From contig JAAUPF010000005.1 in assembly GCA_012034575.1 (NCBI GenBank), positions 1-64,000 on the forward strand: 64,000 nucleotides of DNA, given 5' to 3'. The DNA is from Richelia sp. CSU_2_1. GTDB taxonomy: Bacteria; Cyanobacteriota; Cyanobacteriia; Cyanobacteriales; Microcoleaceae. The notes under the pieces were generated by a model. The model was not told the DNA's origin. It saw nothing but the letters and a program-made list of their open reading frames with translations, and ran no database searches. Position 1 is the stretch's first letter, and every line of letters starts with the position of its first letter. Positions 296-14,334 of the stretch are shown here, piece by piece. The translations under genes were made by a program, and so were the position numbers.

Positions 296-1432
296 TTACG
301 CCGATAAAGCTTCAGCATAAAGAGCTTCATATACTTTGATTATCTGTGGCAGACCGTACTCAGTCATTCGTTCCCGTCCGCGCTTTGCCATGATGCGAGC
401 CTCTTCAGGACGATCGAGTATCCAAAGCATTGACCGAGCAAGTCCGTCTACGTCTCCTACCTTAAATAGAAGGCCGCAGCCTCCTTCTAGTAAGTCGCGA
501 GTTCCGCGGATTTCCGTACCGATAGTTGGAATCTCCAAGTACAATGACTCCATTACACAATTGGGAAGCCCCTCCTGTTCGGATGCAAGCAGGGTAGCGG
601 TTGAGGCACGCATTAAGGTCGGGATATCCGATCGCATCCCCAGAAAATGCACCTGATTTTGCACTCCCAAGTCGGCTGCTAACTGTTGCATTTCCTGCAA
701 TATTTGTCCTCTGCCGGCAAAGGCTAGGTGGGCTTGAGGTTTTCCCATCTGAGCGAAAGCTTTTAAAATATCCCAAGGACGCTTGCGGGGAATAAATTCC
801 CCTACGGAAAGAAACAAGGGATTGTCCTGACGTAGCCCCAATTCCTGTCGCACTTTTAAGACTTCGGCTGCGTCAATGGCGTTAGGATTAAAGCGATCGA
901 CATTTATTCCTGTTCCGGGTATGTAGCGAACTTTTTGAGCTGGAACTAGACCATAGCGCTGGGCTGCTTCCTCATCTTCTCGATTCACTACTACTAAATA
1001 ATCTGTCCAGGGCCCAGCTAGCCTTTCTAGTGTCAAAAACATAGCATTTTTTAGTGGTTTGCCGCCTCGGTAAAAGTGAAAGCCTTGGGCTGTGTAAATT
1101 ACCTTAAGTTTTCGTTTTTTTCTCACACTATTGAGCGCATAGCGAGCGACAAATGCTGCTACTGGCGTGGAAACATTTACAATATCGTATTCTTCTCGAA
1201 CTAACACTTGGCGGATTTGTTGCGGGGCGATGATTAAGTTGCGCGGCTCTAAGGGATTTCTTGACCAGTCAACATCCCAAACGCGATCGAACAAATCTGG
1301 GTATTCCTTGTCAGTAGAAAGTTCTTTTGCCATCGCATCTACCTGCCAACCTCGATCGCGCAGGTGCTTGGTTAGAGGAAGAAAAAAATTAAGGGTTGTT
1401 GGAATAGTAGTAACGATTAAAAGTTTGTTCAT
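296..1432 (-). CDS. Glycosyltransferase family 4 (GT-B fold)
   Basis: A 378-residue protein, normal length for GT4. The N-terminal half starts MNKLLIVTTIPTTLNFFLPL, like the acceptor-side Rossmann domain of WbpX/PglA-type enzymes. The C-terminal donor-binding domain begins near FLSVGEFIPRKRP (about residue 210) and contains the EX7E-type motif EGLPNCVMESL (about residues 288-298), the retaining GT4 signature that contacts the nucleotide-sugar. It probably adds one sugar to the lipid-linked repeat unit on the cytoplasmic face. It lies in the minus-strand polysaccharide cluster between the GT2 gene and the CapK-like gene. Donor and acceptor cannot be read from sequence. Confidence 0.88.
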   Translation of the reverse strand: MNKLLIVTTIPTTLNFFLPLTKHLRDRGWQVDAMAKELSTDKEYPDLFDRVWDVDWSRNPLEPRNLIIAPQQIRQVLVREEYDIVNVSTPVAAFVARYALNSVRKKRKLKVIYTAQGFHFYRGGKPLKNAMFLTLERLAGPWTDYLVVVNREDEEAAQRYGLVPAQKVRYIPGTGINVDRFNPNAIDAAEVLKVRQELGLRQDNPLFLSVGEFIPRKRPWDILKAFAQMGKPQAHLAFAGRGQILQEMQQLAADLGVQNQVHFLGMRSDIPTLMRASTATLLASEQEGLPNCVMESLYLEIPTIGTEIRGTRDLLEGGCGLLFKVGDVDGLARSMLWILDRPEEARIMAKRGRERMTEYGLPQIIKVYEALYAEALSA

Positions 1433-1504
1433 GTTTTTTGTTTTTCCTTACCACTTCAAGTTTAATTCTCAATCATGTCCATCAGCACAAAATGTACCCT
1501 AATA

Positions 1505-2380
1505 CTAAATATCTTCAGTTTCACTATTACATCGAGCCCAAATTTCTTTCCATTGCCTTAATTCTTTTGGAGCAACTGGATGATTACCAGTTCGATGCCG
1601 CAGGATCTTGAAATTTAGACCTGTACTCATTGCCACAACATCTACTGAAGCTTTTGCTAGTTGCTCTACTACTCCCCATGTCCATCCATATTTTTTTTCA
1701 ATCCAGGCTTTTTCTAGTAAAATTCTAGACAAGTTATAGCGACTTACTAAACTCTTCTTGAGTGATAGATTTGCCACACGATATCCTAGTAAAATATCTG
1801 GAATACAGGCAAAACGACTGTTTTGATAACTACGAACTAGAATATCATAATCTTCAATTCGAGTCGTCCAGGTTCGGTATTGATAAGTCCGAAACCATTC
1901 AATTTTACCCATCCAAGTGGGATGTAATATATTGAATCCTGCTCTCGGACGATGACAAATTTCATTGTGTTCAAGGTTGCCTTGAGTTGTTCCCATAGGA
2001 TTTCCGTCTCCATCAAAAACTAGATACTTTGTTCCTAAAAGGTCAATTTCAGGATGTTCTTCAAGATACGCTACTTGAGATTTTAGACGCTCTGGATAAG
2101 CAATATCGTCCCCATCCATTCGGGCAAAATACTTACCCTGACTAAGAGAGATAGCTTGGTTTAGACGACGCTGAAGCTTTTGGTTAAGCCCATCGGCTAT
2201 GACTCGAATTCTGGGATCTTTGAAACTCTGGGCAATCTTTAATGTTTGATCTTCAGAGCCATCATCAATTAGCAGAAGTTCCCAATGAGCATAGGTTTGA
2301 TTTAACAGAGAACGAATCGCCAATTTTAAAGTTTTTTCACAATTGAAAATCGGCATTCCAATACTGACCAGTGGTTCCAT
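1505..2380 (-). CDS. Glycosyltransferase family 2 (GT-A fold)
   Basis: A 291-residue inverting GT2-type transferase. The N-terminus has the classical strand VSIGMPIFNCEKTL (residues 5-18), then LLLIDDGSEDQT (about 36-47) for uridine-nucleotide binding, and a DXD-type metal motif MDGDD (88-92). There is no membrane helix, so it should act at the inner face of the membrane on the lipid-linked oligosaccharide. It sits 72 bp upstream of the GT4 gene on the same strand, with a 75-bp gap to the TIM-barrel gene upstream. The coding sequence is visibly more A+T rich than the window average and I saw no HIP1 octamer in it, a mild hint of transfer. Substrate unknown. Confidence 0.88.
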   Translation of the reverse strand: MEPLVSIGMPIFNCEKTLKLAIRSLLNQTYAHWELLLIDDGSEDQTLKIAQSFKDPRIRVIADGLNQKLQRRLNQAISLSQGKYFARMDGDDIAYPERLKSQVAYLEEHPEIDLLGTKYLVFDGDGNPMGTTQGNLEHNEICHRPRAGFNILHPTWMGKIEWFRTYQYRTWTTRIEDYDILVRSYQNSRFACIPDILLGYRVANLSLKKSLVSRYNLSRILLEKAWIEKKYGWTWGVVEQLAKASVDVVAMSTGLNFKILRHRTGNHPVAPKELRQWKEIWARCNSETEDI

Positions 2381-2455: not shown

Positions 2456-3691
2456 TTACTGGGATAGTTGATAGACATGAACCTCCTCTGGTTTAATTAA
2501 ACCACTAAATGTACCATTTTCAAAAATCATCCCAGATGGAAAATCGGGAAATAGAGGTTTGGCTAGTTTTTTTGTCTGAACAGGAAAAGAGAGAGAAACC
2601 TGTCTTGTTTCCGTCTGAGATGTATTGATAACAATGACATATATGATGTTACGATAAGTCCAGAAATTTGCTATTACATCATTCCATTTCGTATTAAGTT
2701 TCGTGAGAGTACCTTGCAACAAAACTGGGCTCATCTTGTTGATTTGAGCCGTGACTAACTTTAGACGATTCCAAACATCAGGATGTTCTTTAATTCTGTT
2801 CTCTTGATCCTCATAAGTATAGAATAAAATGCCGTTAACACCAGAAAGTAAAGCCTGGTAGGTCATATTATGAACCTCACTAGGTGTTGGGAAACGAGAT
2901 CCTTTCCAAGAAAAAGTTTGCAAATTAGCAATAACTGGATGCTGAGAACGATCTGCTGCGGTGCGACCCTTATTGAATACATAATTGACTTCTATTAAAT
3001 GATTGGGTAAATTCTGTGGCCGATTCTTAAAAGGATAGCCAATCGGATAAGACTGACCGCCAATTAGATCGGCAACATGAGCATAATCATCCCACTTTTT
3101 AGACCAACCACTTATACTAATATAAGTAAAATGTTTAGGATCAATAGCTTTGATTTTTTTATGAAGTTCCAAGATTTGATAACTGTTTTCATGATCTCCC
3201 ACATCATCAGCTATACTCCAGCCTAATACAGCAGGTTTATCTTTGAACTTAGCAACCACCTCCAGAGGTTCAGTCCCTTTAAATTCAGTAATGACATAAA
3301 CACCTAATCGATAAGCTTCATCAAGAAAAATATTATATTCATTAATATCGTTACATGAAGCATGAATAGTATTGAAACCGACAGCAGCCATATCTTGCAT
3401 GGCTTCTATTTTTTTTGGAAGATCTAACTGAAAATAAGTATGATACATACCCAAGGGGAAAAAAGGTTTTCCATTGACTTTAATTGGATTAATTTGAACA
3501 GCTTTATTAGATGATATATTAGACATCGCTTGGTTATTGAATACTACGCAAAAGAAAAAAAATCCCAATCCCCAGAATAAACATAATATTAATACAGATA
3601 ACAAATGATAATTTTTTACTTTTTTTATTTTGTTGATCATGGTGGCTATTTTAAATATTAAATAAAAGATTATTTCCTTCAGATATTCCAT
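2456..3691 (-). CDS. Membrane-anchored glycoside-hydrolase-like TIM-barrel protein
   Basis: A 411-residue protein. One hydrophobic segment (about residues 30-52, SVLILCLFWGLGFFFF) looks like a signal anchor, leaving the rest outside the cytoplasmic membrane. The exported part begins with PIKVNGKPFFPLGMYH, then AVGFNTIHA and GVYVITEFKG, the beta-strand order seen at the start of (beta/alpha)8 glycosidases of clan GH-A type, and GWSIADDVGDHE where related barrels carry an acid/base residue. The usual Asn-Glu pair is not obvious here, so activity is uncertain. It is embedded in the Wzx/Wzy cluster, so it may trim, modify or help export the polymer. Very A+T-rich coding. An alternative start lies at codon 18 (MINKIKK). 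Confidence 0.55.
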   Translation of the reverse strand: MEYLKEIIFYLIFKIATMINKIKKVKNYHLLSVLILCLFWGLGFFFFCVVFNNQAMSNISSNKAVQINPIKVNGKPFFPLGMYHTYFQLDLPKKIEAMQDMAAVGFNTIHASCNDINEYNIFLDEAYRLGVYVITEFKGTEPLEVVAKFKDKPAVLGWSIADDVGDHENSYQILELHKKIKAIDPKHFTYISISGWSKKWDDYAHVADLIGGQSYPIGYPFKNRPQNLPNHLIEVNYVFNKGRTAADRSQHPVIANLQTFSWKGSRFPTPSEVHNMTYQALLSGVNGILFYTYEDQENRIKEHPDVWNRLKLVTAQINKMSPVLLQGTLTKLNTKWNDVIANFWTYRNIIYVIVINTSQTETRQVSLSFPVQTKKLAKPLFPDFPSGMIFENGTFSGLIKPEEVHVYQLSQ

Positions 3692-3715: not shown

Positions 3716-4948
3716 TCAAGGAAATTGATCCTGGTGTGATTTTTTGTTGAATCGCTGATTCGTTGAAGGATTGGCTTTTACTATAATAACTCCTATCGAT
3801 AACATATAGGCTATAGTCATTGCATTTCCTAACGAGCCAAACATTCCCTCACCCATACCCAAAAACCAAAAACCAGTTGTGATTACCAGAGGTCCACAAG
3901 CATAAGGTTCTTGTTTATCATACTTTCTGAAATACTCATAAGTATAATAGAAACTAGCTACCATAAAACCTATCATGAAATAAGCTGCAATCAATCCATT
4001 AGAACCCAATGCTATAATAATACTATTATGACCCCCCAACCCAAAATTCAACTCAAAGTAATTAGTTCCGTACCCTAATAAGCTCATATCATTTATAGTT
4101 TTACTCCATATTTCTTCTCTGCCACTTAGAGCTTCTTTGTTTTGAATATTGGTAATTTGTTGTAAAATTCCTTGAGTTTGTTCACCACTTGAACTTATAA
4201 TTGCCAAACCAATAACAGTTATTAAACTCATAATAATTCCAATTAAAAGTTGCGGTTTTTGCAGTAATTTTAATAGTAAAATTAAAGACATAGCAACGAA
4301 TGCGATTAGAGATGTTCGTGCATTAGATACTAAAATTATCATTAAACTGAAAAGCCATAAAAGCAAAAATGGGAGATACCAGATATTTTGGGTTTTGTAT
4401 AAACTGCCTATTAACAATATTAAAACACCTGATGCCATTGCGGCACAAGTAAACCCTAATTGGTTGGAATTAGGAAATACCCCACTATAAATGTTGCTAT
4501 TCGATTGACTCAAAGGATTCAACAATAAAGACATAAAAATATATGGGGAAAGCCCTAAAAATAAAGATAAACTAATAATAAAATTAGCATTTTTGTCCAT
4601 TAATCTTGGAACTATTGTAAAAAAAATAAGAGGCACTGCTAACATTAACCATAGACTATCTCTGACAGAAGTTGAGTCATTATTAGCTATACCAGAAATG
4701 ACTGATACCAAAGTGAATAAACTCCAGAATAAAAATAAGGGGACTGGTTTAGTAGAAAGACCCCGCATATCAAATCTGGCCATTGCTAAAAAAAATATCA
4801 AGTCGATTCCCACTATAAAATAGCGAAGTCTTAAGATCATTGGATCTATAGGGAATTCTGCATTTCCCAAATTAATTAACGATGACGACCCAAAAAGAAT
4901 GCTTAGGCTTATAACCATTAAAAATTGTCTGCTTCCAAATTTATTCAT
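3716..4948 (-). CDS. O-antigen ligase/polymerase-like membrane protein (Wzy type)
   Basis: A 410-residue, very hydrophobic protein with roughly ten predicted membrane helices and a longer polar loop before the last ones (SGEQTQGILQQITNIQNKEALSGREEIW, read in pieces). A loop with SGREEIW followed by LLGYG and then GGHNSIIIALGSNGLIAA matches the WaaL/Wzy pattern, where Arg and a His-containing loop lie outside the membrane. In a cluster with a Wzx flippase and a Wzc kinase it is most simply the polymerase that joins lipid-linked repeat units in the periplasm. A+T rich, no HIP1 octamer noticed. The ligase alternative cannot be excluded, as the two families share the fold. Confidence 0.75.
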   Translation of the reverse strand: MNKFGSRQFLMVISLSILFGSSSLINLGNAEFPIDPMILRLRYFIVGIDLIFFLAMARFDMRGLSTKPVPLFLFWSLFTLVSVISGIANNDSTSVRDSLWLMLAVPLIFFTIVPRLMDKNANFIISLSLFLGLSPYIFMSLLLNPLSQSNSNIYSGVFPNSNQLGFTCAAMASGVLILLIGSLYKTQNIWYLPFLLLWLFSLMIILVSNARTSLIAFVAMSLILLLKLLQKPQLLIGIIMSLITVIGLAIISSSGEQTQGILQQITNIQNKEALSGREEIWSKTINDMSLLGYGTNYFELNFGLGGHNSIIIALGSNGLIAAYFMIGFMVASFYYTYEYFRKYDKQEPYACGPLVITTGFWFLGMGEGMFGSLGNAMTIAYMLSIGVIIVKANPSTNQRFNKKSHQDQFP

Positions 4949-4982: not shown

Positions 4983-6143
4983 TTAAAAAACTAAATCTTG
5001 CTCCAAGCAGATCAAATAATAGTTTTGTAAATTTTGAGAGCTTCTCTGAATATTAAATACACTGCTTTCTAGAATAGTCACAGCTTCTTTTTGAGATATA
5101 GACACTGGATTTTTTTGCTTGTTAATAATTGCTTGTCCCCACACCGATTTTGGTTTTTCTAAAGAGATACGATGTATAAAAGATGGAATAATATCAGCTT
5201 CTTCTGGAATAACATCTGAAACAATACAAGGTTTTCCGGCTGCTTGTGCTTCGATCAATACTAAGCCTAGCCCTTCATAAAGAGAGGGAAAAAGAAACAA
5301 GTCTATAACAGCTAACAAACGGGGAACATCGGGACGATTTCCAGAAAAAATTACTCGATCGGCTAACGCCATCTGTTTAACTTTTTCCTCAATCATGGGT
5401 CGTAAAATGCCATCTCCTATCAATAATAAACGCATTCCAGGGTTTTTTTGAGCAACAATAGCAGCAATTTCTAAAATAAATAAATGGTTTTTTTGTTCCT
5501 CAAAACGACCAACATGACCAATGACAAAAGCATCCTCTGGAATTCCTAATTCCTGACGTAGGGCAAGTCCGTTCACAGGTGTTTTAAACGGTGTTAAGTC
5601 AATACCACAATAGAGCAATTGCCAACGGCGGTTATTCTCCCAATCATCCCCAAATAGAGCCACCGCCGAGACACGACTCGCAGCTAAGCCGGCTGTGGCA
5701 GAACTCTGAATAAAACTTTTCATTAAAGTCGTATAAATTCGTCGTAAAAAACTCGCATGGGCATCTACCTCAGCGGTATCATTATGACTATGGGCGATGC
5801 GGATCGGTACTCCCGCCTGTTTTGCCAACCAGAGAATATATCCGCTAAAGTGATGGACGTGGCTGTGAATGATGTCATAGGGGCCGTACTCGCGCAAAAT
5901 ACGCTTTAGATTACGACTGTACAACCAGGGTTTCGATCGATCTAGACAGGGAATTATCTTGCTGCCCAAGGTACGAATCTCTTCATCGTAAGCACAGGGC
6001 TGATCTGTATGAACCAGAAAATCCATCTGAAAACGATCGCGATCGATATTTCGTAAGATGTGCATGAGCCAAGTTTCTGTGCCGGCCCGGTTCATACCGC
6101 CAACAGCGTGGAGAATTCGGATAGAAGGCTTATCAACTAACAT
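4983..6143 (-). CDS. Glycosyltransferase family 4 (GT-B fold)
   Basis: A 386-residue GT4 protein. The N-terminal domain carries RILHAVGGMNRAGTETWLMH, the glycine-rich acceptor loop typical of EpsF/CapM-like enzymes. The donor domain starts at FVIGHVGRFEEQKNH (about residue 205) and includes the EX7E motif YEGLGLVLIEAQAAGKP. It has no membrane segment and should act as a peripheral cytoplasmic-face enzyme in repeat-unit assembly. It is 18 bp downstream of the flippase gene, so the two are probably translated from one mRNA. The 5' half is rich in CGATCG sites like the host genome, while the 3' end grades into the A+T-rich segment of the cluster. Confidence 0.9.
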   Translation of the reverse strand: MLVDKPSIRILHAVGGMNRAGTETWLMHILRNIDRDRFQMDFLVHTDQPCAYDEEIRTLGSKIIPCLDRSKPWLYSRNLKRILREYGPYDIIHSHVHHFSGYILWLAKQAGVPIRIAHSHNDTAEVDAHASFLRRIYTTLMKSFIQSSATAGLAASRVSAVALFGDDWENNRRWQLLYCGIDLTPFKTPVNGLALRQELGIPEDAFVIGHVGRFEEQKNHLFILEIAAIVAQKNPGMRLLLIGDGILRPMIEEKVKQMALADRVIFSGNRPDVPRLLAVIDLFLFPSLYEGLGLVLIEAQAAGKPCIVSDVIPEEADIIPSFIHRISLEKPKSVWGQAIINKQKNPVSISQKEAVTILESSVFNIQRSSQNLQNYYLICLEQDLVF

Positions 6144-6161: not shown

Positions 6162-7472
6162 CTAATGTTTTTGGATCTTGTATATTGCATAAGCAATTAC
6201 TGCCAAACTAAAAACTACTTGAACGATCGCCCCAACGATCAGCGCGATCGCTGCCCCTCTGACTCCCTGTGTCGGAATTAACCAGAAACAGGCGATCGCA
6301 CAACTCCCCGTTACCAAAACAAACAAAGGCATTTGCACCCGAAAGTACCTAGCCGCCGTCATTCCATAACCCAAAAAGGAAGAAACATAACCAATACCCG
6401 CAGCTACCATCAGCCACGCGAACAAATCCGATCGCTCGGCATACTCCGGCTTATAAAGTAAAGTTAGGATTGGTTTGCCGGCAACAATAGCGACAAAAAC
6501 ACCTCCCATACCTAACATCAAGCCAATCCCCACCAGCTTAAGTAAAAGTGTGCGAAAAGCAGTGCTATTTCCCGCTGCATAATATTTTGCCAGCCGCGGA
6601 CTTGCAGACTCCGCTAACGAACTCACTACTATTTGTCCTGCCACCATCAGGTAGGAAATTGCAGCGAAAATACCCAGTTCCCGTTCGCCCCAATATCGCT
6701 CGATAAAGTATCGAGGAATATTAGTATTCAGCGAAAGCAACATCATCACAATACCCAGAGGTAAAGCCAGCCAAACTAACTTGCTCAAAGTTTTTACGTG
6801 CCAGCGCGGATACAAGGGATTTTGGCTGTTTGCAGGTGCAACATCGGCAACTAATAAATCTTCTGCATCTCTCTGATGCGAAGAATTATTTAAAATTAGT
6901 CTACCATTGCGAATGTCCCAGCCAAAGAGGACTAAACCCCACGCAATTGCTAAGCCGATCGCTCCTCCTACAACACTCCCAGTCAAGGAAACTCCGATGC
7001 CTAAAAGCAACAGAGATAAAGGGCCTTTAATCATCAGGGCGATCGCAATTCGATCCATCCGTTCGTGTTGTTGGATCAGTCCGTTAAACACATCGGCGAT
7101 CGACTCGAATGCCTTAGCAAGGGCGATCGTCAAAATCACCAGTGAAGTCTCCAACCGATATCCAGCTTTCAGCGTAATTCCTGCAATTATCAACAGTGCT
7201 AAACCAGTTCCAATTAACCTCAGACCCAGATAATCACTGAAAACATACTCACCTTTAGCATCCGTCGCTTGGATACCTCGCAATTGCAGGTTAGTAAACA
7301 TGATAACAGGCGCTGTCACCGCCAAACCCAAGGTAAATTGACCTACCATTTCAGGACTGCCCAATTTAGCAAGCACCACCAACATCCCCCACTGGGAAGC
7401 CGCATAAATGAGGTTGCCAGTGAAAGTCCAGGAAAAATTCCGGCGTAATGTTAATGGTTTGAGCTGCTGCAT
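6162..7472 (-). CDS. Oligosaccharide flippase (Wzx-like, MOP superfamily)
   Basis: A 436-residue integral membrane protein with about 12-14 hydrophobic helices. The N-terminus LRRNFSWTFTGNLIYAASQWGMLVVLAKLGSPEMVG is typical of the polysaccharide_synt/RfbX family, which turns undecaprenyl-linked repeat units from the cytoplasmic to the periplasmic side. A central polar loop (about residues 196-225) separates the two halves, as in other MOP transporters. The neighbours (dehydratase-EAL gene 73 bp upstream, GT4 18 bp downstream) fit a Wzx/Wzy pathway. HIP1-rich codons make it look native to the genome. Confidence 0.87.
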   Translation of the reverse strand: MQQLKPLTLRRNFSWTFTGNLIYAASQWGMLVVLAKLGSPEMVGQFTLGLAVTAPVIMFTNLQLRGIQATDAKGEYVFSDYLGLRLIGTGLALLIIAGITLKAGYRLETSLVILTIALAKAFESIADVFNGLIQQHERMDRIAIALMIKGPLSLLLLGIGVSLTGSVVGGAIGLAIAWGLVLFGWDIRNGRLILNNSSHQRDAEDLLVADVAPANSQNPLYPRWHVKTLSKLVWLALPLGIVMMLLSLNTNIPRYFIERYWGERELGIFAAISYLMVAGQIVVSSLAESASPRLAKYYAAGNSTAFRTLLLKLVGIGLMLGMGGVFVAIVAGKPILTLLYKPEYAERSDLFAWLMVAAGIGYVSSFLGYGMTAARYFRVQMPLFVLVTGSCAIACFWLIPTQGVRGAAIALIVGAIVQVVFSLAVIAYAIYKIQKH

Positions 7473-7545: not shown

Positions 7546-10350
7546 TTAACTTTTAACAGTCATAGCCTCGATCGCCCTCTCCACCTCCTCACTTGCTACT
7601 GGCTTCGAGAAAAAGTATCCCTGCCCGTAGGCGCATTTCATAGTCTTAAGCTGAGCTATTTGCTGGGAGGTTTCTATCCCAGTAGCGATCGTACTCATAT
7701 CTAGCTCCTGCGCGATCGCAATAATTTTTTGCAGAGTTTCCAAGTTACCTTCGTGAGTATCCAGCCCGCTAACCACAGAGCAATCCAGCTTCAAACCATC
7801 TAATTTCCCGTACTTCATCCGGATCAAGCGGTGCAGGCGAGTTAAAGATTTATCGCTCAAACCGCAGTGGTCGATTTGCAATTTAACCCCCAACGCTTTG
7901 AGTTTGACAAACACGGCGTTAGCCAACTCAGAATTGTGGGTCACCACTTCCTCGGAAAGTTCTAGCTTCAAGCTTGCAGCATTAAGATTTTTTTCCTTGA
8001 GAATTTGACCGACTTGCTCCACAAAATCTGGTTGGAAAAACTGTTTGCCAGTTAAGTTAACGCTAACTGTCAAAGGATGGTAGCGATCGAATTGCTGCTG
8101 CCAAATCCGCAACTGACTGGAAGCTTGCCGCAGCACCCACTCGCCTATAGGCACAATTAAACCGCTTGCTTCAGCAGCAGGAATAAACTCGCCTGGAACC
8201 AGCAATCCGCGAGTTGGGTGCTGCCAGCGCAACAGCGCCTCAAAAGCGGTAATCTTATTAGTTTCCAGCGAAACTACTGGTTGATAGTAAAGCCGAAACT
8301 CCTCAAGTTGAATTGCCTGCCGCAAATCGTTCTCTACCTGAACGGATACAACATCGCTAACACTTGCTTGCTTCAAGAAACTTCCGGCGAGATCCGTTGT
8401 TTCCTTGTCTGTCTTCGAGTGCAAATTAACCGTAGAATATCCCGGAACGTATTCAGGTACTAACTGCTCCAGCAAAAACACGATTAAATTAGCATCATTG
8501 CGATCGGCGGCTTCACAAAGATCTGCTACGTCTTCATCAATATTTTCTCGCATGATGCGGCTGGCATTGCCGACAATCATAATTTTTTCATGTTGAGTTT
8601 TGTCGTAGGTTTCGCCGGGAATAAACAGTTCTTCAAACAATTTTTCTCCGGGTCTGAGTCCCGTAAACGCAATATCGATGTCTTTCCCCAATTCGTATCC
8701 CGAGAGGCGAATTAAATCTTTTGCCAAGTCAACAATTCTGACTGGTTCTCCCATGTCGAGCATGAATACTTGACCCCCGTGACCGAGCACTGCCGCCTGT
8801 AACAGCAGTTGTACTGCTTCGGGAATTGTCATGAAATAGCGACAGATATCTGGATGGGTAATGGTGATCGGCCCGCCTTCAGCAATTTGCCGTTTGAAGG
8901 TGGGGACGACGCTGCCGCGACTGCCGAGAACGTTGCCGAAACGCACGACGACAAAGGGTTTGCCGCTGGTTTTAGCAGCTTGCAGCACCAACATTTCGGC
9001 AACTCTTTTACTGGCTCCCATAATGTTAGTAGGATTTACCGCTTTGTCGGTCGAAATCATCACAAAGTGTTCGACATCGTATTTTAAAGCCATATCTAAC
9101 AAGTTTTTTGTACCTCTCACATTGTTAGTAATGGCTTCCGGCGGATTTAATTCCATCATGGGTACGTGTTTGTGAGCCGCTGCGTGAAAAATGATATCAG
9201 GTCTAATTTTTTCAAACAGGTATTCTAAGCGATCGACAAAGCGAATATCGGCTATAAATGTGGTTAATCTGGGCGAATTGTCTGGGATTTTACCTTCTTT
9301 TTGCAAATCAGCAATTACTCTGTTTAGTTCCTGTTGAATGTTGAATACAGAGTTTTCTCCGTGCCCGACAAGGATGATTTCTTCCGGATTTGATTTTAAA
9401 ACTTGCCGGCAAAGTTCGCTGCCGATCGAACCCCCCGCGCCTGTAATTAAAACTTTTTTGCCTCTAATAAATGCAGCTACTCGATCGATCTCGGTTTGGA
9501 TGGATGCGCGGCGCAGCAAATCCTCAATTTGGACTTCTCTGACGCTACCCAAACTAACGCGGCCGCCGAGGATTTCGCTAATTCCAGGTAAAGTGCTGGT
9601 AGGAATTCCGATCGACTGACAAATTTCAACGATTTCTCGAATTTGTTTCCCCGAAGCTGTGGGTATGGCGATGATAACTTTGCGAATATTTAACTCTCTG
9701 ACTACTTGGGGAATTTGATAGCGGTTGCCCAATACACTTATGCCGCGAATCCGCAAGTTGAGTTTTTTCGGATCGTCGTCAATGAAAGCTGCCGGGTAAA
9801 GTCCTAGCTGCGGGCTGCGCTGCATTTTTTGCAGTAAAGAAATGCCTGCACTGCCCGCCCCGACTATCAACAGGCGATCGCAGTGCTGAAATTTCCGCCC
9901 TCTTTCCTGCAAGCGTTCGATCGCTGGAATGCTGAAGCGAATGCTTCCTATAATGATAAAGCTTAAGAGTGCGTCCAGCAGCAAGATCGATCGGGGCAGC
10001 GCATTCGCAGGCAAACCAGTTAAATGAAAAACAGCTTTCAGCAAAAATGTTTCTAATACTAGGGCTACACATATCAGCATCCCTATATATCCTAATTCGT
10101 CAATACCGGCATACCTCCAGTAGCGCCTGTAAAGTCCGAACGTATAAAACACTGCCAGTTTTGTCACCACGAACACCAGCGTTGCTAATATTAGCGCCTG
10201 GGTGTACGGAGCGATCGCAAAAGTGTTATCTAAACGAATGAACAGAGCTAAGAGTGGCGTAACTGCCAACACCAATGTATCTACGATCGAGAAAGGGCGA
10301 TTTCTTAACCCCATTAATCCTTTAAAAAAAAATTTCATCGCCGTATCCAT
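7546..10350 (-). CDS. Membrane nucleotide-sugar 4,6-dehydratase (FlaA1/CapD/WbpM type) fused to a degenerate EAL domain
   Basis: A 934-residue continuous reading frame. Residues about 20-145 contain four membrane helices, followed by a CoA-binding-type Rossmann domain (GAGSAGISL, about 162). A short-chain dehydrogenase/epimerase domain follows, with ITGAGGSIGSELC (about 300), the active-site segment STDKAVNPTNIMGASKR and the ending LRPGEKLFEELF, as in WbpM/FlaA1 UDP-GlcNAc 4,6-dehydratases. Residues about 672-934 add an EAL domain: EALLRW (704-709), SVNLTGKQF, KLELSEE and YGQGYFFSKP are kept. However, the metal motif DDFG reads DHCG (827-830) and the catalytic AEGVE reads ATGIE (890 is Thr). 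The domain is therefore probably a c-di-GMP sensor or scaffold rather than a phosphodiesterase. First gene of the minus-strand polysaccharide cluster. The fusion is not usual for the family. Confidence 0.9.
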   Translation of the reverse strand: MDTAMKFFFKGLMGLRNRPFSIVDTLVLAVTPLLALFIRLDNTFAIAPYTQALILATLVFVVTKLAVFYTFGLYRRYWRYAGIDELGYIGMLICVALVLETFLLKAVFHLTGLPANALPRSILLLDALLSFIIIGSIRFSIPAIERLQERGRKFQHCDRLLIVGAGSAGISLLQKMQRSPQLGLYPAAFIDDDPKKLNLRIRGISVLGNRYQIPQVVRELNIRKVIIAIPTASGKQIREIVEICQSIGIPTSTLPGISEILGGRVSLGSVREVQIEDLLRRASIQTEIDRVAAFIRGKKVLITGAGGSIGSELCRQVLKSNPEEIILVGHGENSVFNIQQELNRVIADLQKEGKIPDNSPRLTTFIADIRFVDRLEYLFEKIRPDIIFHAAAHKHVPMMELNPPEAITNNVRGTKNLLDMALKYDVEHFVMISTDKAVNPTNIMGASKRVAEMLVLQAAKTSGKPFVVVRFGNVLGSRGSVVPTFKRQIAEGGPITITHPDICRYFMTIPEAVQLLLQAAVLGHGGQVFMLDMGEPVRIVDLAKDLIRLSGYELGKDIDIAFTGLRPGEKLFEELFIPGETYDKTQHEKIMIVGNASRIMRENIDEDVADLCEAADRNDANLIVFLLEQLVPEYVPGYSTVNLHSKTDKETTDLAGSFLKQASVSDVVSVQVENDLRQAIQLEEFRLYYQPVVSLETNKITAFEALLRWQHPTRGLLVPGEFIPAAEASGLIVPIGEWVLRQASSQLRIWQQQFDRYHPLTVSVNLTGKQFFQPDFVEQVGQILKEKNLNAASLKLELSEEVVTHNSELANAVFVKLKALGVKLQIDHCGLSDKSLTRLHRLIRMKYGKLDGLKLDCSVVSGLDTHEGNLETLQKIIAIAQELDMSTIATGIETSQQIAQLKTMKCAYGQGYFFSKPVASEEVERAIEAMTVKS

Positions 10351-10852: not shown

Positions 10853-13057
10853 ATGGAACCCGCAGAAACTGGTATAGAGCTTCAGCAATACTGGCAAATT
10901 ATCAAGCGGCGCTGGCTGCCCGCGTTAATCGTATTTGCCTCAATTCTCGCATTTGTCAGCTACAGCATACTTAAGGAAAAGCCGATTTATGAAGCAGAAG
11001 GCAAGCTCTTATTAAAAAAGGCAACAGCGGGTGCTTCTTTAACCGAAGTAGGAAAAGAAATAGGACAGCTAACTCCCGCAGCAGAGCAAAGCAATCCTCT
11101 GACTACCGAGATCGAGGTAATTCGCTCTACGGAACTTGTAGACAAAACAATAAATAAATTACATTTAAAAGATGAAACAGGCAAGCGTTTGAAAACAAAA
11201 GATTTTTTAAAAAAGCTGACCGTTGCTAGCGTTCGGGGAGCGGATATTCTGACACTTTCCTACAAAAGCAAAAGTCCCAAACAAGCAGCAGAAGTTGTCA
11301 GGTATTTGATGGATATTTACCTAGAAAATAATTTAAAAGTAAATCGCTTAGAAGCTGTATCAGTCCGTCAGTTTATAGAAAAAAAATTACCTGCTGCTGA
11401 AAACTTAATGCGTTTAAATGCAGCAGCATTGAGCGATTTTAAAGAAAAAAATAAAGTAGTAAATTTAGAAGAAGAAGCTAAATCGGCGGTGGCTGTTATG
11501 GCTCAGTTAGAAAGCCAGATAGATGACGCTAAGTCTGATTTAGTCAAAGCAACTGCTAAGTCTGAAGCATTTCAAAAAGAATTGCAGATGAATCCACAGC
11601 AGGCATTAACAGCGAGCAACCTCAGCCAGTCTAGTGCTGTGCAGGAAGCTCTGAAAGAATACCAGCAAGTAGAACGTCAATTAACTTTAGAAAAAAACCG
11701 CTATCAGGAAAGCTCACCAATAATAACTAGGCTGGAAACTAAAAAAGCTTCTTTGAAAGCTTTACTAGACCAACAAATACAGCAGATTGTCGGCCCTGTT
11801 CCACAACAGTACGATGAAAGTTTGCAGATTGGAGAAGTAAAGCCAAAACTCATCGAAGAGTTTATCAAAGTAGATGTAGAACGACAAGGCTTAGCCGATC
11901 GAGTTTCTATTTTATCAAACGCGCTAGTTGGCTACAAGCAGCGAGTGCAAAGTTTGCCGACACTGGAGAAACAACAGCGCCAACTATCCAGAAAGCTGGA
12001 AGAAGCTGAATTCGCTTATGCAGAATTGCAAAAAAAACTTCAGGAAATTCGGATCGCTGAAAATCAGAAAGTGGGTAATGCTCGGATTATCCAACAAGCT
12101 AGCCTTCCTCAAGAGCCAGTAGCGTCTCGCAAATCTCTAATGTTAGTGTCAGGTGCTATGTTGGGAACTTTGGCTGGTATAGCTGCGGCTCTAGTTTTAG
12201 AATCGCAAGACAAATCTGTCAAAACTATTGATGAAGCCAGGGATTTATTTGGTTTGACATTGTTAGGAGTGATTCCCGCACATAAATCGGAAAAAAATAG
12301 CTGGGGCAATTTCCTGCGACCTAGTTCTGGTAATGGAGATTCTGAACCATCTCCGGGACAGATTGTGGTGAAAGATACTCCTCATACCAGTATCAGCGCT
12401 GCTTACAGGATGCTGCAAGCAAATCTGAGGTTTCTGTGTTCGGATAAAGAACTAAAAGTTATTGTGGTTAGCAGTTCGCTGCCGCAGGAGGGTAAGTCTA
12501 CAGTAGCTGCTAATTTGGCGGCAACTGTTGCTCAATTAGGACGCAAAGTTTTGCTGGTAGATGCGGATATGCACCGCCCGGTGCAACACCGAATTTGGGA
12601 TGTTCCCAATCAGGTGGGTTTGAGCAATGCGATTGTCGGACAAGCCCAATGGCAAAGCGCGATCGCCCCTGTGATGGATAATTTAGATCTGCTAAGTTGC
12701 GGGGTAATTCCACCTAACCCAATGGCTCTTTTAGACTCGCAGCGGATAACTTTGTTGATCGGACAATTTGCGAGCAATTACGATCTAGTCATCATCGACA
12801 CTCCTTCTTTAAATGTTGCTGCCGACGCTCCGATTCTCGGTAAAAAAGCAGACGGTATTTTAATGGTAGCGCGGCCGGGCGTACTGTATTCTGGCAGCGT
12901 GGCTTTTGCTAAAGATTTGTTAAAGAAATCCAATCAACACGTACTCGGTATGGTAGTGAATGGGGTGGTTCCCAAGAACGAACCCCACAGTCATTACTAT
13001 TTTGCGAATGAATCTTACACGCAAGTACAAAGTCCGAGCAAACAGAAAAAAGCTTAA
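10853..13057 (+). CDS. Wzc-like polysaccharide co-polymerase / BY-kinase
   Basis: A 734-residue protein. The N-terminal Wzz domain begins with IELQQYWQIIKRRWLPALIVF (first membrane helix about 20-42). A long periplasmic coiled-coil stretch (about 170-400) ends in the second helix SLMLVSGAMLGTLAGIAAAL (about 430). The cytoplasmic tyrosine-kinase domain has Walker A PQEGKSTVAANL (Lys about 548), Walker A' VLLVDADMHRP and Walker B LVIIDTPS (about 643). A short tail with three tyrosines (HYYFANESY) is the expected autophosphorylation cluster. It should control chain length and export of the polymer made by the cluster on the opposite strand. Start chosen at the ATG 45 bp after the predicted promoter. 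Confidence 0.92.
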   Translation: MEPAETGIELQQYWQIIKRRWLPALIVFASILAFVSYSILKEKPIYEAEGKLLLKKATAGASLTEVGKEIGQLTPAAEQSNPLTTEIEVIRSTELVDKTINKLHLKDETGKRLKTKDFLKKLTVASVRGADILTLSYKSKSPKQAAEVVRYLMDIYLENNLKVNRLEAVSVRQFIEKKLPAAENLMRLNAAALSDFKEKNKVVNLEEEAKSAVAVMAQLESQIDDAKSDLVKATAKSEAFQKELQMNPQQALTASNLSQSSAVQEALKEYQQVERQLTLEKNRYQESSPIITRLETKKASLKALLDQQIQQIVGPVPQQYDESLQIGEVKPKLIEEFIKVDVERQGLADRVSILSNALVGYKQRVQSLPTLEKQQRQLSRKLEEAEFAYAELQKKLQEIRIAENQKVGNARIIQQASLPQEPVASRKSLMLVSGAMLGTLAGIAAALVLESQDKSVKTIDEARDLFGLTLLGVIPAHKSEKNSWGNFLRPSSGNGDSEPSPGQIVVKDTPHTSISAAYRMLQANLRFLCSDKELKVIVVSSSLPQEGKSTVAANLAATVAQLGRKVLLVDADMHRPVQHRIWDVPNQVGLSNAIVGQAQWQSAIAPVMDNLDLLSCGVIPPNPMALLDSQRITLLIGQFASNYDLVIIDTPSLNVAADAPILGKKADGILMVARPGVLYSGSVAFAKDLLKKSNQHVLGMVVNGVVPKNEPHSHYYFANESYTQVQSPSKQKKA

Positions 13058-13171: not shown

Positions 13172-13591
13172 CTAAATAGTCCAATCTTCAAAATTCAAAC
13201 CGGGTACGCGCTCAAAATCCCGTCTATTTCGCGTCACTAAAATGCCCTTTCTGGAAATAACAGTAGCTGCAATCCTTAAATCTTGAGTACCGATGCGAAT
13301 TTTTTGACGCACCAGTTCGGCATAACAATTATAAGCATCCAAATCAAAAGCAAGTAAGTTAATATTTGTGAAATCCTCCAAGGTTTTTTCGAGTTGTTTG
13401 TAAGCAAATGTCATTGTATTTGCTGAGTTAGCGCTTTTTATCTGATTGAGTCGCCCATACAATTGTTCTACAACAGTAACCATTGTAATTGCAATTTCTT
13501 CATCACTGACGGTATTAATGCGCTGTATTAGTTGCGGATAACCTCTTTGTAAAAGGGAGAAATGATCTGTGTCTAACACCCACAAAGTCAT
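13172..13591 (-). CDS. PIN-domain ribonuclease toxin (VapC-like)
   Basis: A 139-residue PIN protein. Acidic metal-binding residues are visible in order: VLDTDHF (Asp7, Asp9), TVVEQLYG (Glu), GTQDLRIAA (Asp) and TRNRRDFERVPGL (Asp). These are the conserved positions of VapC-type toxins, which cleave tRNA or rRNA and are kept silent by the partner antitoxin. Its ATG overlaps the stop of the upstream gene by four bases (ATGA, 13588-13591), so translation should be coupled. The partner is not a usual VapB but a duplicated HicB-like protein. Confidence 0.85.
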   Translation of the reverse strand: MTLWVLDTDHFSLLQRGYPQLIQRINTVSDEEIAITMVTVVEQLYGRLNQIKSANSANTMTFAYKQLEKTLEDFTNINLLAFDLDAYNCYAELVRQKIRIGTQDLRIAATVISRKGILVTRNRRDFERVPGLNFEDWTI

Positions 13592-14160
13592 TGAGCTACT
13601 TCCTCCGCATCCAGTTTGCGGTAATACTCTTCCATCTCTGCATCTAGTTCGCGACGATAAGCTTCAATATCTGCTTGCATTGCTTCAAATTGCGGATCGT
13701 CTTTGTACTTACCAGCTAACTTCATCCAAGGATTGTCAGGTTTGGTTTTTTTTATTTCTAGTGAAATGACTTCAGCTTTTTCAAGTCGATCTCTCGCAAT
13801 TTTGCTAATACTGGAAATAGCCTCTTCGCGGCTATTTCCCTCAGCTTTACATTCGGATAATCCCAAAACTATCGCTTCATATTTTCCCTCTGTTTTCTGT
13901 TCGATGAGAACTGTCAAGGCTGGTATATTGGGTTTGGGTTCCGGTATTTCTAAAGAAATGAGTTCAGCTTTTTCTAAACGATTTGCGATCGCAAAGCCCA
14001 GATTTGCGATCGCCTCGTCCCGATTACTTCCCTCAGCTTTACATTCTGGTAATCCCAACACCATCGCTTGATATTTGCCTTCTGTTTCCTGTTCAATAAT
14101 GGCTGTTAAGGAAAAGTCAGTTGATTTGTCTGCAGGCTTCAGCAATATTTTAGCAGTCAT
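13588..14160 (-). CDS. Tandem HicB-like antitoxin paired with PIN toxin
   Basis: 190 residues from the ATG at 14160; an upstream TTG at 14181 is less likely. Two copies of a HicB-like module are visible: LTAIIEQETEGKYQAMVLGLPECKAEG and LTVLIEQKTEGKYEAIVLGLSECKAEG, each followed by a helix ending LEKAE(L/V)ISLEI. The duplicate is so close that internal gene duplication is clear. The C-terminal tail (NPWMKLAGKYKDDPQFEA onward) is charged and helical and is the likely toxin-blocking segment, as in other cyanobacterial PIN partners. No DNA-binding domain is obvious. Stop and toxin start overlap. The antitoxin role is inferred from overlap and position. Confidence 0.7.
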   Translation of the reverse strand: MTAKILLKPADKSTDFSLTAIIEQETEGKYQAMVLGLPECKAEGSNRDEAIANLGFAIANRLEKAELISLEIPEPKPNIPALTVLIEQKTEGKYEAIVLGLSECKAEGNSREEAISSISKIARDRLEKAEVISLEIKKTKPDNPWMKLAGKYKDDPQFEAMQADIEAYRRELDAEMEEYYRKLDAEEVAQ

Positions 14161-14334
14161 CGCAGTAAAATTAAGTAACAATGATTCCTTTGATTATAGC
14201 AATAATTATGTGGACCTAAATGTGGCGATTGCCACTTGCTTTAAGCCTGACAAAATATTCAGGGTTTCCCATCCCCGCTGATGATGGCGGATTGTTTTTA
14301 TAGCCCGATTTAAATCTAAGTCTTACAAACCTCG

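Follow-up and report, generated by a model that had tools for sequence, protein, structure and literature searches.

A membrane nucleotide-sugar dehydratase of cyanobacteria fused to a degenerate EAL domain, a candidate c-di-GMP receptor

Background

In the 64,000-nucleotide stretch analysed here (the window; positions 1 to 64,000 of contig JAAUPF010000005.1 of the cyanobacterium Richelia sp. CSU_2_1), one gene joins a membrane-bound nucleotide-sugar dehydratase to an EAL domain, a domain associated with the second messenger cyclic di-GMP (c-di-GMP). The question raised by this locus is what such a domain does at the end of an enzyme of polysaccharide precursor synthesis. The answer towards which we lean, with modest confidence, is that the protein is a membrane UDP-N-acetylglucosamine (UDP-GlcNAc) 4,6-dehydratase in which a non-cleaving, c-di-GMP-binding EAL domain would regulate nucleotide-sugar supply. 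This reading is drawn from sequence comparison, and above all from the residues that the EAL domain has kept and lost.

Results and discussion

The fused gene

The gene and its parts are as follows (residue numbers are those of the protein).

7546..10350, minus strand: whole fused gene, a single ATG-started frame of 934 codons (934 aa)
9934..10293, minus strand: N-terminal membrane anchor, residues 20-139, with four transmembrane-like segments (hydropathy; helices in the predicted model)
9613..10140, minus strand: CoA_binding_3, residues 71-246 (Pfam, above the curated cut-off)
8572..9453, minus strand: Polysacc_synt_2, PglF/WbpM-type 4,6-dehydratase, residues 300-593 (Pfam E 7e-118, above the curated cut-off)
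8332..8448, minus strand: linker from the dehydratase part to the EAL domain, residues 635-673, variable in length and sequence among relatives
7600..8331, minus strand: degenerate EAL domain, residues 674-917 (Pfam E 5e-62, above the curated cut-off)

The dehydratase-EAL fusion is real and conserved and is no accident. Full-length relatives with 66-87% identity are found in ten further genomes of the same genus, and other families and orders contain more distant ones; because independent genomes carry the fusion, an assembly artefact or a chance join in the window is ruled out. The EAL domain is complete by profile, covering Pfam EAL positions 2-236 of 236. A sequence-only reading of this stretch had described a single uninterrupted dehydratase-EAL frame, and its coordinates, strand and motifs all hold. 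It had also warned that relatives might encode the two parts as separate genes, with a fusion error here. This is not what was found: no separate EAL gene adjoins the unfused relatives within the flanks examined (as a rule 1.5 to 4 kb), where the EAL domain is either missing or a remnant (L164, L169).

Residues kept and lost in the EAL domain

In the window protein the motif FEALLRW, N765, E797 and GQG are kept, while DDFG reads DHCG and AEGVE reads ATGIE. Position by position, Q690, E704, R708, N765, E797, D827, K854, D856, E893 and Q910 are retained, whereas H828 and T890 stand in place of an Asp and a Glu. Of these, E893 and Q910 are taken by us to be pocket residues, on the analogy of the contacts that PMC7288161 lists for FimX. 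Residues were mapped by alignment and motif: E704, N765, E797 and D827 correspond to the ligands of metal 1, H828 to the second Asp of DDFG, D856 to Asp183 of PA3825, T890 to the first Glu of AEGVE, and Q690 and R708 to Q161 and R179 of RocR. In PA3825, metal 1 is described as held by Glu39, Asn98, Asp130 and Asp160, and metal 2 by Asp161 and Asp183 with magnesium; with calcium, the contacts given are Asp160 and Glu217, not Asp183 (PMC5301497). For RocR, E175, N233, E265, D295, D296 and E352 are reported as metal ligands and Q161 and R179 as substrate-binding residues (PMC7911125). The motif calls of the earlier reading (EALLRW, N, E and QG kept, DHCG, and Thr for the base of AEGVE) were borne out; the full set of metal-1 ligands and the loop insertion described below had not been part of it.

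This pattern was followed through 46 fused EAL domains, made up of 39 intact copies from the window's order, the EAL frames of the broken copies in genomes G441 and G410, and five from beyond the order; the set leaves out the truncated L164 and L169. The 37 controls are the nearest other EAL domains by score, and not a random sample; 29 come from fusion-bearing genomes and eight from genomes in which no fusion was found. The frame length of L213 had suggested another fused copy, but its architecture is REC-PAS-GGDEF-EAL and its motif is intact, and it is counted among the controls.

All four metal-1 ligands (E704, N765, E797 and D827) are present in 46/46 fused domains, as are Q690, R708, E893 and Q910, and 43 have retained Lys854. 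The second Asp of DDFG is absent from every fused domain (Asn in 27, His in 12, Lys in three, Arg in two and Gln in two) and present in 37/37 controls; DHCG is the variant of the window's genus, with Asn, Arg, Gln or Lys at the second position elsewhere. The first Glu of AEGVE is likewise missing from all 46 fused domains (Thr in 36, Ala in three, Val in three, and Ile, Ser, Met and Leu in one each), is never replaced by Asp, and is present in all 37 controls. The controls are canonical at all of these positions, except for one Gln at E893. In a set of 42 fused rows, 16 positions are invariant when gaps are ignored (Q690, P691, E704, A705, L706, R708, W709, F722, W750, N765, D827, E893, Q897, Q910, G911 and P917), against 29 in 36 controls.

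The two sets also differ in length. Between D827 and K854 there are exactly 20 residues in 37/37 controls, and 24-27 in 41/41 fused rows and 23-25 in the five others, so that the fused domains carry an insertion of 3-7 residues in the compound-helix stretch. Because the compound helix of BlrP1, which forms the EAL dimer interface, is described as directly linked to the strands bearing both Asps and the Lys (PMC3989770), the insertion would lie in or next to that helix. Loop 6 of the fused domains does not read DFGTGYSS. The most degenerate domains include that of L215, a distant fused copy in genome G830, in which Gln replaces the second Asp, Leu the Glu and Ser E800, and the loop reads DQIN.

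The fused domains have the metal-1 ligands of an active EAL phosphodiesterase, and that of the window protein its completeness; they lack its second Asp, AEGVE Glu, loop 6 and 20-residue spacing. Both marks of a degenerate EAL receptor, lost cleavage residues and kept substrate-binding residues, are present. Loss of cleavage is predicted because the second Asp and the EGVE Glu are gone, and binding is predicted to be retained because the metal-1 site and the pocket are invariant. The degenerate motif is a conserved signature of the family and fits a receptor better than decay.

The dehydratase part

The window protein shares its active site and N-terminal membrane part with PglF of Campylobacter jejuni, WbpM and CapD; whereas those enzymes are not known to continue past the dehydratase domain, it adds a C-terminal EAL domain of about 240 residues. 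The best match of the dehydratase part in the PDB by sequence is WlaL (5bju, E 2e-87), which we take to be PglF. The TDKxnMx3K pattern described as the active site of PglF and WbpM (PMC8987622) is present as T434, D435, K436, M444 and K448, and the catalytic residues are kept in 41/41 fused rows with letters at these positions, the 42nd row being a partial frame. With Polysacc_synt_2 and this active site, an N-terminal transmembrane anchor (by hydropathy) and CoA_binding_3, the window enzyme is probably a membrane dehydratase of the PglF/WbpM/CapD type, and UDP-GlcNAc 4,6-dehydration is its probable reaction. The earlier reading had placed it at the first step of polymer synthesis; more narrowly, it would open the route to one nucleotide sugar, probably an unusual one for an outer polysaccharide.

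Distribution

In the window's genus the intact fusion is found in 11/29 genomes; one further genome, G410, has it in two overlapping frames, and the other 17 have no match at E 1e-100. In the 61 genomes searched from the family, none of the 32 outside the genus matches at E 1e-200. Across the order, 79/388 genomes match at E 1e-200 and at least 39/388 carry an intact fusion, distributed over six family groups (11 in f1, 11 in f20, nine in f17, three in f14, three in f58 and two in f15). The count of 39 includes copies whose listed match ended at the dehydratase and whose locus was then read onward. In addition to these, the order has two broken frames (G410 and G441) and two truncated EAL remnants (G423 and G503). 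We had considered that the fusion might be confined to this order; a search of the class (388 genomes) disproved this, with at least five more fusions in G832 (f30) and in G830, G712, G807 and G763 (f34). Because strict E limits were used, the genome counts are lower bounds.

One of these five, that of G763, apparently lies on a plasmid, ABRG53f of Pseudanabaena sp. ABRG5-3 (L212:11971-14823), where it is annotated only as a polysaccharide biosynthesis protein. Among 312 plasmid records matching at 1e-80, only the ABRG53f record covers at least 80% of the protein. The plasmid is typed as non-mobilizable, and the fused gene lies between a divergent tyrosine autokinase gene and a polyketide synthase/nonribosomal peptide synthetase cluster. 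A contig scan with full-length alignment showed no visible EAL domain at 80 loci among the matches listed; both peptide patterns used sit in the dehydratase and are hence unspecific.

Origin, losses and selection

In a tree of the 46 fused and 37 other EAL domains, the fused domains form one side of a single branch (bootstrap 100; Shimodaira-Hasegawa-like approximate likelihood ratio test 99), and a tree of 42 fused rows, L169 included, and 36 other rows gives the same single fused clade. In the dehydratase tree (94 rows, quick method), fused and unfused proteins are mixed: the best tree requires eight changes of state, at least four of them forced by well supported branches, and an earlier tree of 88 rows required seven, six of them forced. 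One unfused clade of 19 rows consists of 18 from group f18 and one from Nostoc sp. NMS2. The trees exclude L038-L108, duplicate loci (L138, L139, L174-L178, L180, L181 and L193) and the partial L024; the 94-row tree also excludes L228 (same matches as L212), L161 (frameshift) and eight long-branch outgroup rows (L020-L023, L033, L036, L037 and L131). A single clade of EAL domains beside interspersed fused and unfused dehydratases is explained most simply by one fusion and its later loss in several lines, the unfused clade of 19 rows among them; the trees themselves do not separate gain from loss. The whole gene may also have been transferred, for example to Pseudanabaena.

Group f58 shows the states side by side. 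At its loci beside a divergent Wzc gene, the EAL domain is complete at L163, L167 and L168, reduced to a middle remnant at L164 and L169 and absent at L162, L165 and L166; a Wzx gene lies downstream in all but L164 and L169. Broken copies also occur. The copy in G441 carries a frameshift. That in G410 (L173:5840-5980) is split within the linker, where its alignment with the nearest relative, L018, shows a gap of five bases in one row and, close by, a gap of three bases in the other; this split gene may be a pseudogene, an assembly error or two proteins.

The ratio of nonsynonymous to synonymous substitution rates (dN/dS), taken over 15 pairs that share members, is 0.036-0.446 for the EAL domain (median 0.175) and 0.057-0.321 for the dehydratase part (median 0.097). 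As its ratio is well below 1, the EAL domain is constrained by purifying selection, less strongly than the enzyme.

Gene neighbourhood

The fused gene of the window lies among genes for polysaccharide synthesis:

296..2380, minus strand: two glycosyltransferase genes, group 1 at 296-1432 and family 2 at 1505-2380 (Pfam)
2456-3691: 411-aa protein without any Pfam match, inside the cluster
3716..4948, minus strand: Wzy-like polymerase, a weak match (Wzy_C 29.7 bits, cut-off 31.7)
4983..6143, minus strand: glycosyltransferase, group 1 (Pfam)
6162..7472, minus strand: flippase of the Polysacc_synt (Wzx) family, next gene downstream (Pfam)
10853..13057, plus strand: Wzc-type chain-length determinant/tyrosine autokinase, divergent neighbour (Pfam)

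Because the contig begins at base 1, the cluster is cut off at one end. The neighbourhood fits a Wzx/Wzy-like pathway, perhaps one with a 4-amino-4,6-dideoxy sugar. Further along, a 197-aa frame (13588-14181) contains two near-repeats of about 50 residues, which by eye are presumably HicB-like.

Similar neighbours recur in some groups. In f1, a Wzc gene is found at 11/12 loci and a Wzx gene at nine of the 12; in f58, both are found at six of eight loci, and in f15 Wzc at two of two. The fused loci of f14, f17 and f20 have neither by the neighbour test, most of them with a flank of 1.5 kb only, and six f20 loci with flanks of 3 to 4 kb also lack both. MurJ-type flippases and glycosyltransferases are encoded near the fused gene in G012, G453 and G463, and a Bac_transf priming transferase in G012 and G453. 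In G012 a DegT aminotransferase gene lies about 14 kb away, with a transposase gene in between. Also near the fused gene are a GH123-like protein in G453 and DUF4832/DUF4874 proteins in G012 and G463.

Relation to known systems

EAL domains that bind without cleaving are established, as described for FimX and LapD (PMC7288161; for LapD also PMC3032553), and like these the fused domains have an EAL fold with catalytic residues lost and the pocket kept; in FimX, too, the EAL Glu remains as a metal ligand. They differ in that LapD has KVL (PMC3032553) and FimX is described as being without the DDFGTG motif (PMC5301497), while the fused domains keep all four metal-1 ligands, and in that the output of the fused domain would be an enzyme in the same chain. 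In sequence they match FimX and LapD more weakly than they match the best-matching EAL domains.

With the c-di-GMP control of BcsA and Alg44 (through PilZ), PelD (through GGDEF) and HfsJ, as these systems are described, the arrangement proposed here shares that c-di-GMP acts on the polymer machinery itself; the receptor domain differs. Those proteins act on polymerisation, export or glycosyl transfer, and are not known to act on nucleotide-sugar supply. A UDP-GlcNAc dehydratase as a control point, together with a bacterial tyrosine kinase (BY-kinase) of the pathway, is reported in Staphylococcus aureus, where CapE is regulated by CapAB; that control is by tyrosine phosphorylation, and CapD, the nearer relative of the window enzyme, is not phosphorylated in that account (PMC6441080).

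A dehydratase-EAL fusion was not found described in the listed titles and abstract starts from a library of open-licence papers, an absence that is weak evidence; the earlier reading had likewise not known it as a described class. A text search found no occurrence of the word "dehydratase" in PMC7063779, PMC8846402 or PMC13075795.

Proposed mechanism and alternatives

We infer the substrate, the loss of cleavage, the binding of c-di-GMP and the regulation of the dehydratase from the comparisons above. They lend support to the suggestion of the earlier reading that c-di-GMP could control the enzyme directly, by a route other than PilZ or GGDEF receptors. In the proposed mechanism, the C-terminal EAL domain, having lost the second Asp of metal site 2 and the AEGVE Glu, would not cleave c-di-GMP; with metal site 1 and the dinucleotide pocket retained, it would bind it as a receptor. 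Binding would change the pairing of the EAL domains or their packing against the dehydratase and would thereby alter dehydratase activity, which in turn would set how much 4-keto-6-deoxy amino-sugar precursor reaches the surrounding polysaccharide cluster. That higher c-di-GMP would raise sugar output is a guess based on the general rule. More tentatively, at a little less than even confidence, the fused proteins may form a distinct, single-origin class of one-metal EAL receptors on PglF/WbpM/CapD-type dehydratases, so far seen only in cyanobacteria, in which c-di-GMP would gate a nucleotide sugar upstream of polymerisation and, in some groups, in parallel with the BY-kinase next door.

The main rivals are a docking module and a vestigial domain. 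The EAL domain might serve in protein-protein docking or oligomerisation without binding c-di-GMP, recruiting the flippase, the polymerase or the neighbouring BY-kinase. The predicted loss of cleavage and the remodelled compound-helix stretch agree with this, and BluF is a known EAL protein described as acting through partners without phosphodiesterase activity (PMC3509220). We nevertheless consider a docking module unlikely, as it leaves unexplained why none of 46 rows departs from Q690, R708, E893, Q910 or the metal-1 ligands, in a family where the 42-row set has only 16 invariant positions. A vestigial domain, derived from one ancestral fusion, deprived of cleavage and now decaying and being discarded, would account for the repeated changes of fused state in the dehydratase tree, for the truncated remnants at L164 and L169, for the split frames in G410 and the frameshift in G441, and for an EAL dN/dS above that of the dehydratase in 12/15 pairs. 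It is in our view somewhat less likely still: dN/dS is well below 1 in 15/15 pairs, and all 46 rows, from inside and outside the window's order, have the same pocket and metal-1 residues.

Two further explanations concern the ligand. A phosphodiesterase that is still active, lowering c-di-GMP locally at the polymer machinery, could point to the EAL Glu, the Asn, the second Glu, the first Asp and the Gln in 46/46 domains, to Lys854 in 43 and to D856 in 41. FimX, however, is described as keeping the EAL Glu and Lys and using both in metal and ligand binding (PMC3527489), so that the kept Lys854 is no argument for activity. With the EGVE Glu and the second Asp lost throughout, and loop 6 altered, this is highly improbable; the Glu of EGVE is described as the catalytic base, and domains without it are classed as inactive in PMC12900916. 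A pocket re-purposed for another ligand, such as pGpG, another cyclic dinucleotide or a nucleotide sugar giving feedback, has a precedent in the FimX EAL domain, reported to bind pGpG with magnesium held by the EAL Glu (PMC3527489), and metal site 1 is intact in the fused domains. It is nevertheless very unlikely, since Q690 and R708, which match the substrate-binding Q161 and R179 of RocR, are invariant.

Several observations weigh against a regulatory c-di-GMP receptor. D856 is Asp in 41 of the 46 fused domains (Asn in one, His in four), so that metal site 2 is damaged and in most of them not wholly erased. Repeated loss of the EAL domain from the dehydratase means that it is dispensable, and at L164:3995-6382 and L169:3530-5932 only a middle piece (within Pfam positions 53-156) without the EAL motif remains in frame, which may be a domain under loss or one re-used. 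The looser constraint on the EAL domain than on the dehydratase in those 12 pairs belongs here too, as does the finding that, beyond groups f1 and f58, most fused copies showed no Wzx and Wzc neighbours. In an AlphaFold model of the full protein (23 dehydratase rows), the predicted local distance difference test score (pLDDT) is 70.8 overall and below 50 over most of residues 639-934; for the EAL part alone it is 39.9.

Conclusions

Degenerate EAL receptors are already known, and no description was found of one attached to a metabolic enzyme of polysaccharide synthesis. The kept metal-1 site and the two lost cleavage residues, in 46 natural sequences set against 37 intact controls, amount to a natural experiment on the requirements of binding and of cleavage in an EAL domain. 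Lines that have lost the domain, in f58 at one shared locus, provide matched pairs for judging its effect. If the proposed mechanism is true, precursor supply comes under the second messenger by way of a receptor built into the enzyme. On the more tentative reading of a distinct receptor class, c-di-GMP would control which sugar enters the polymer, beyond how much polymer is made.

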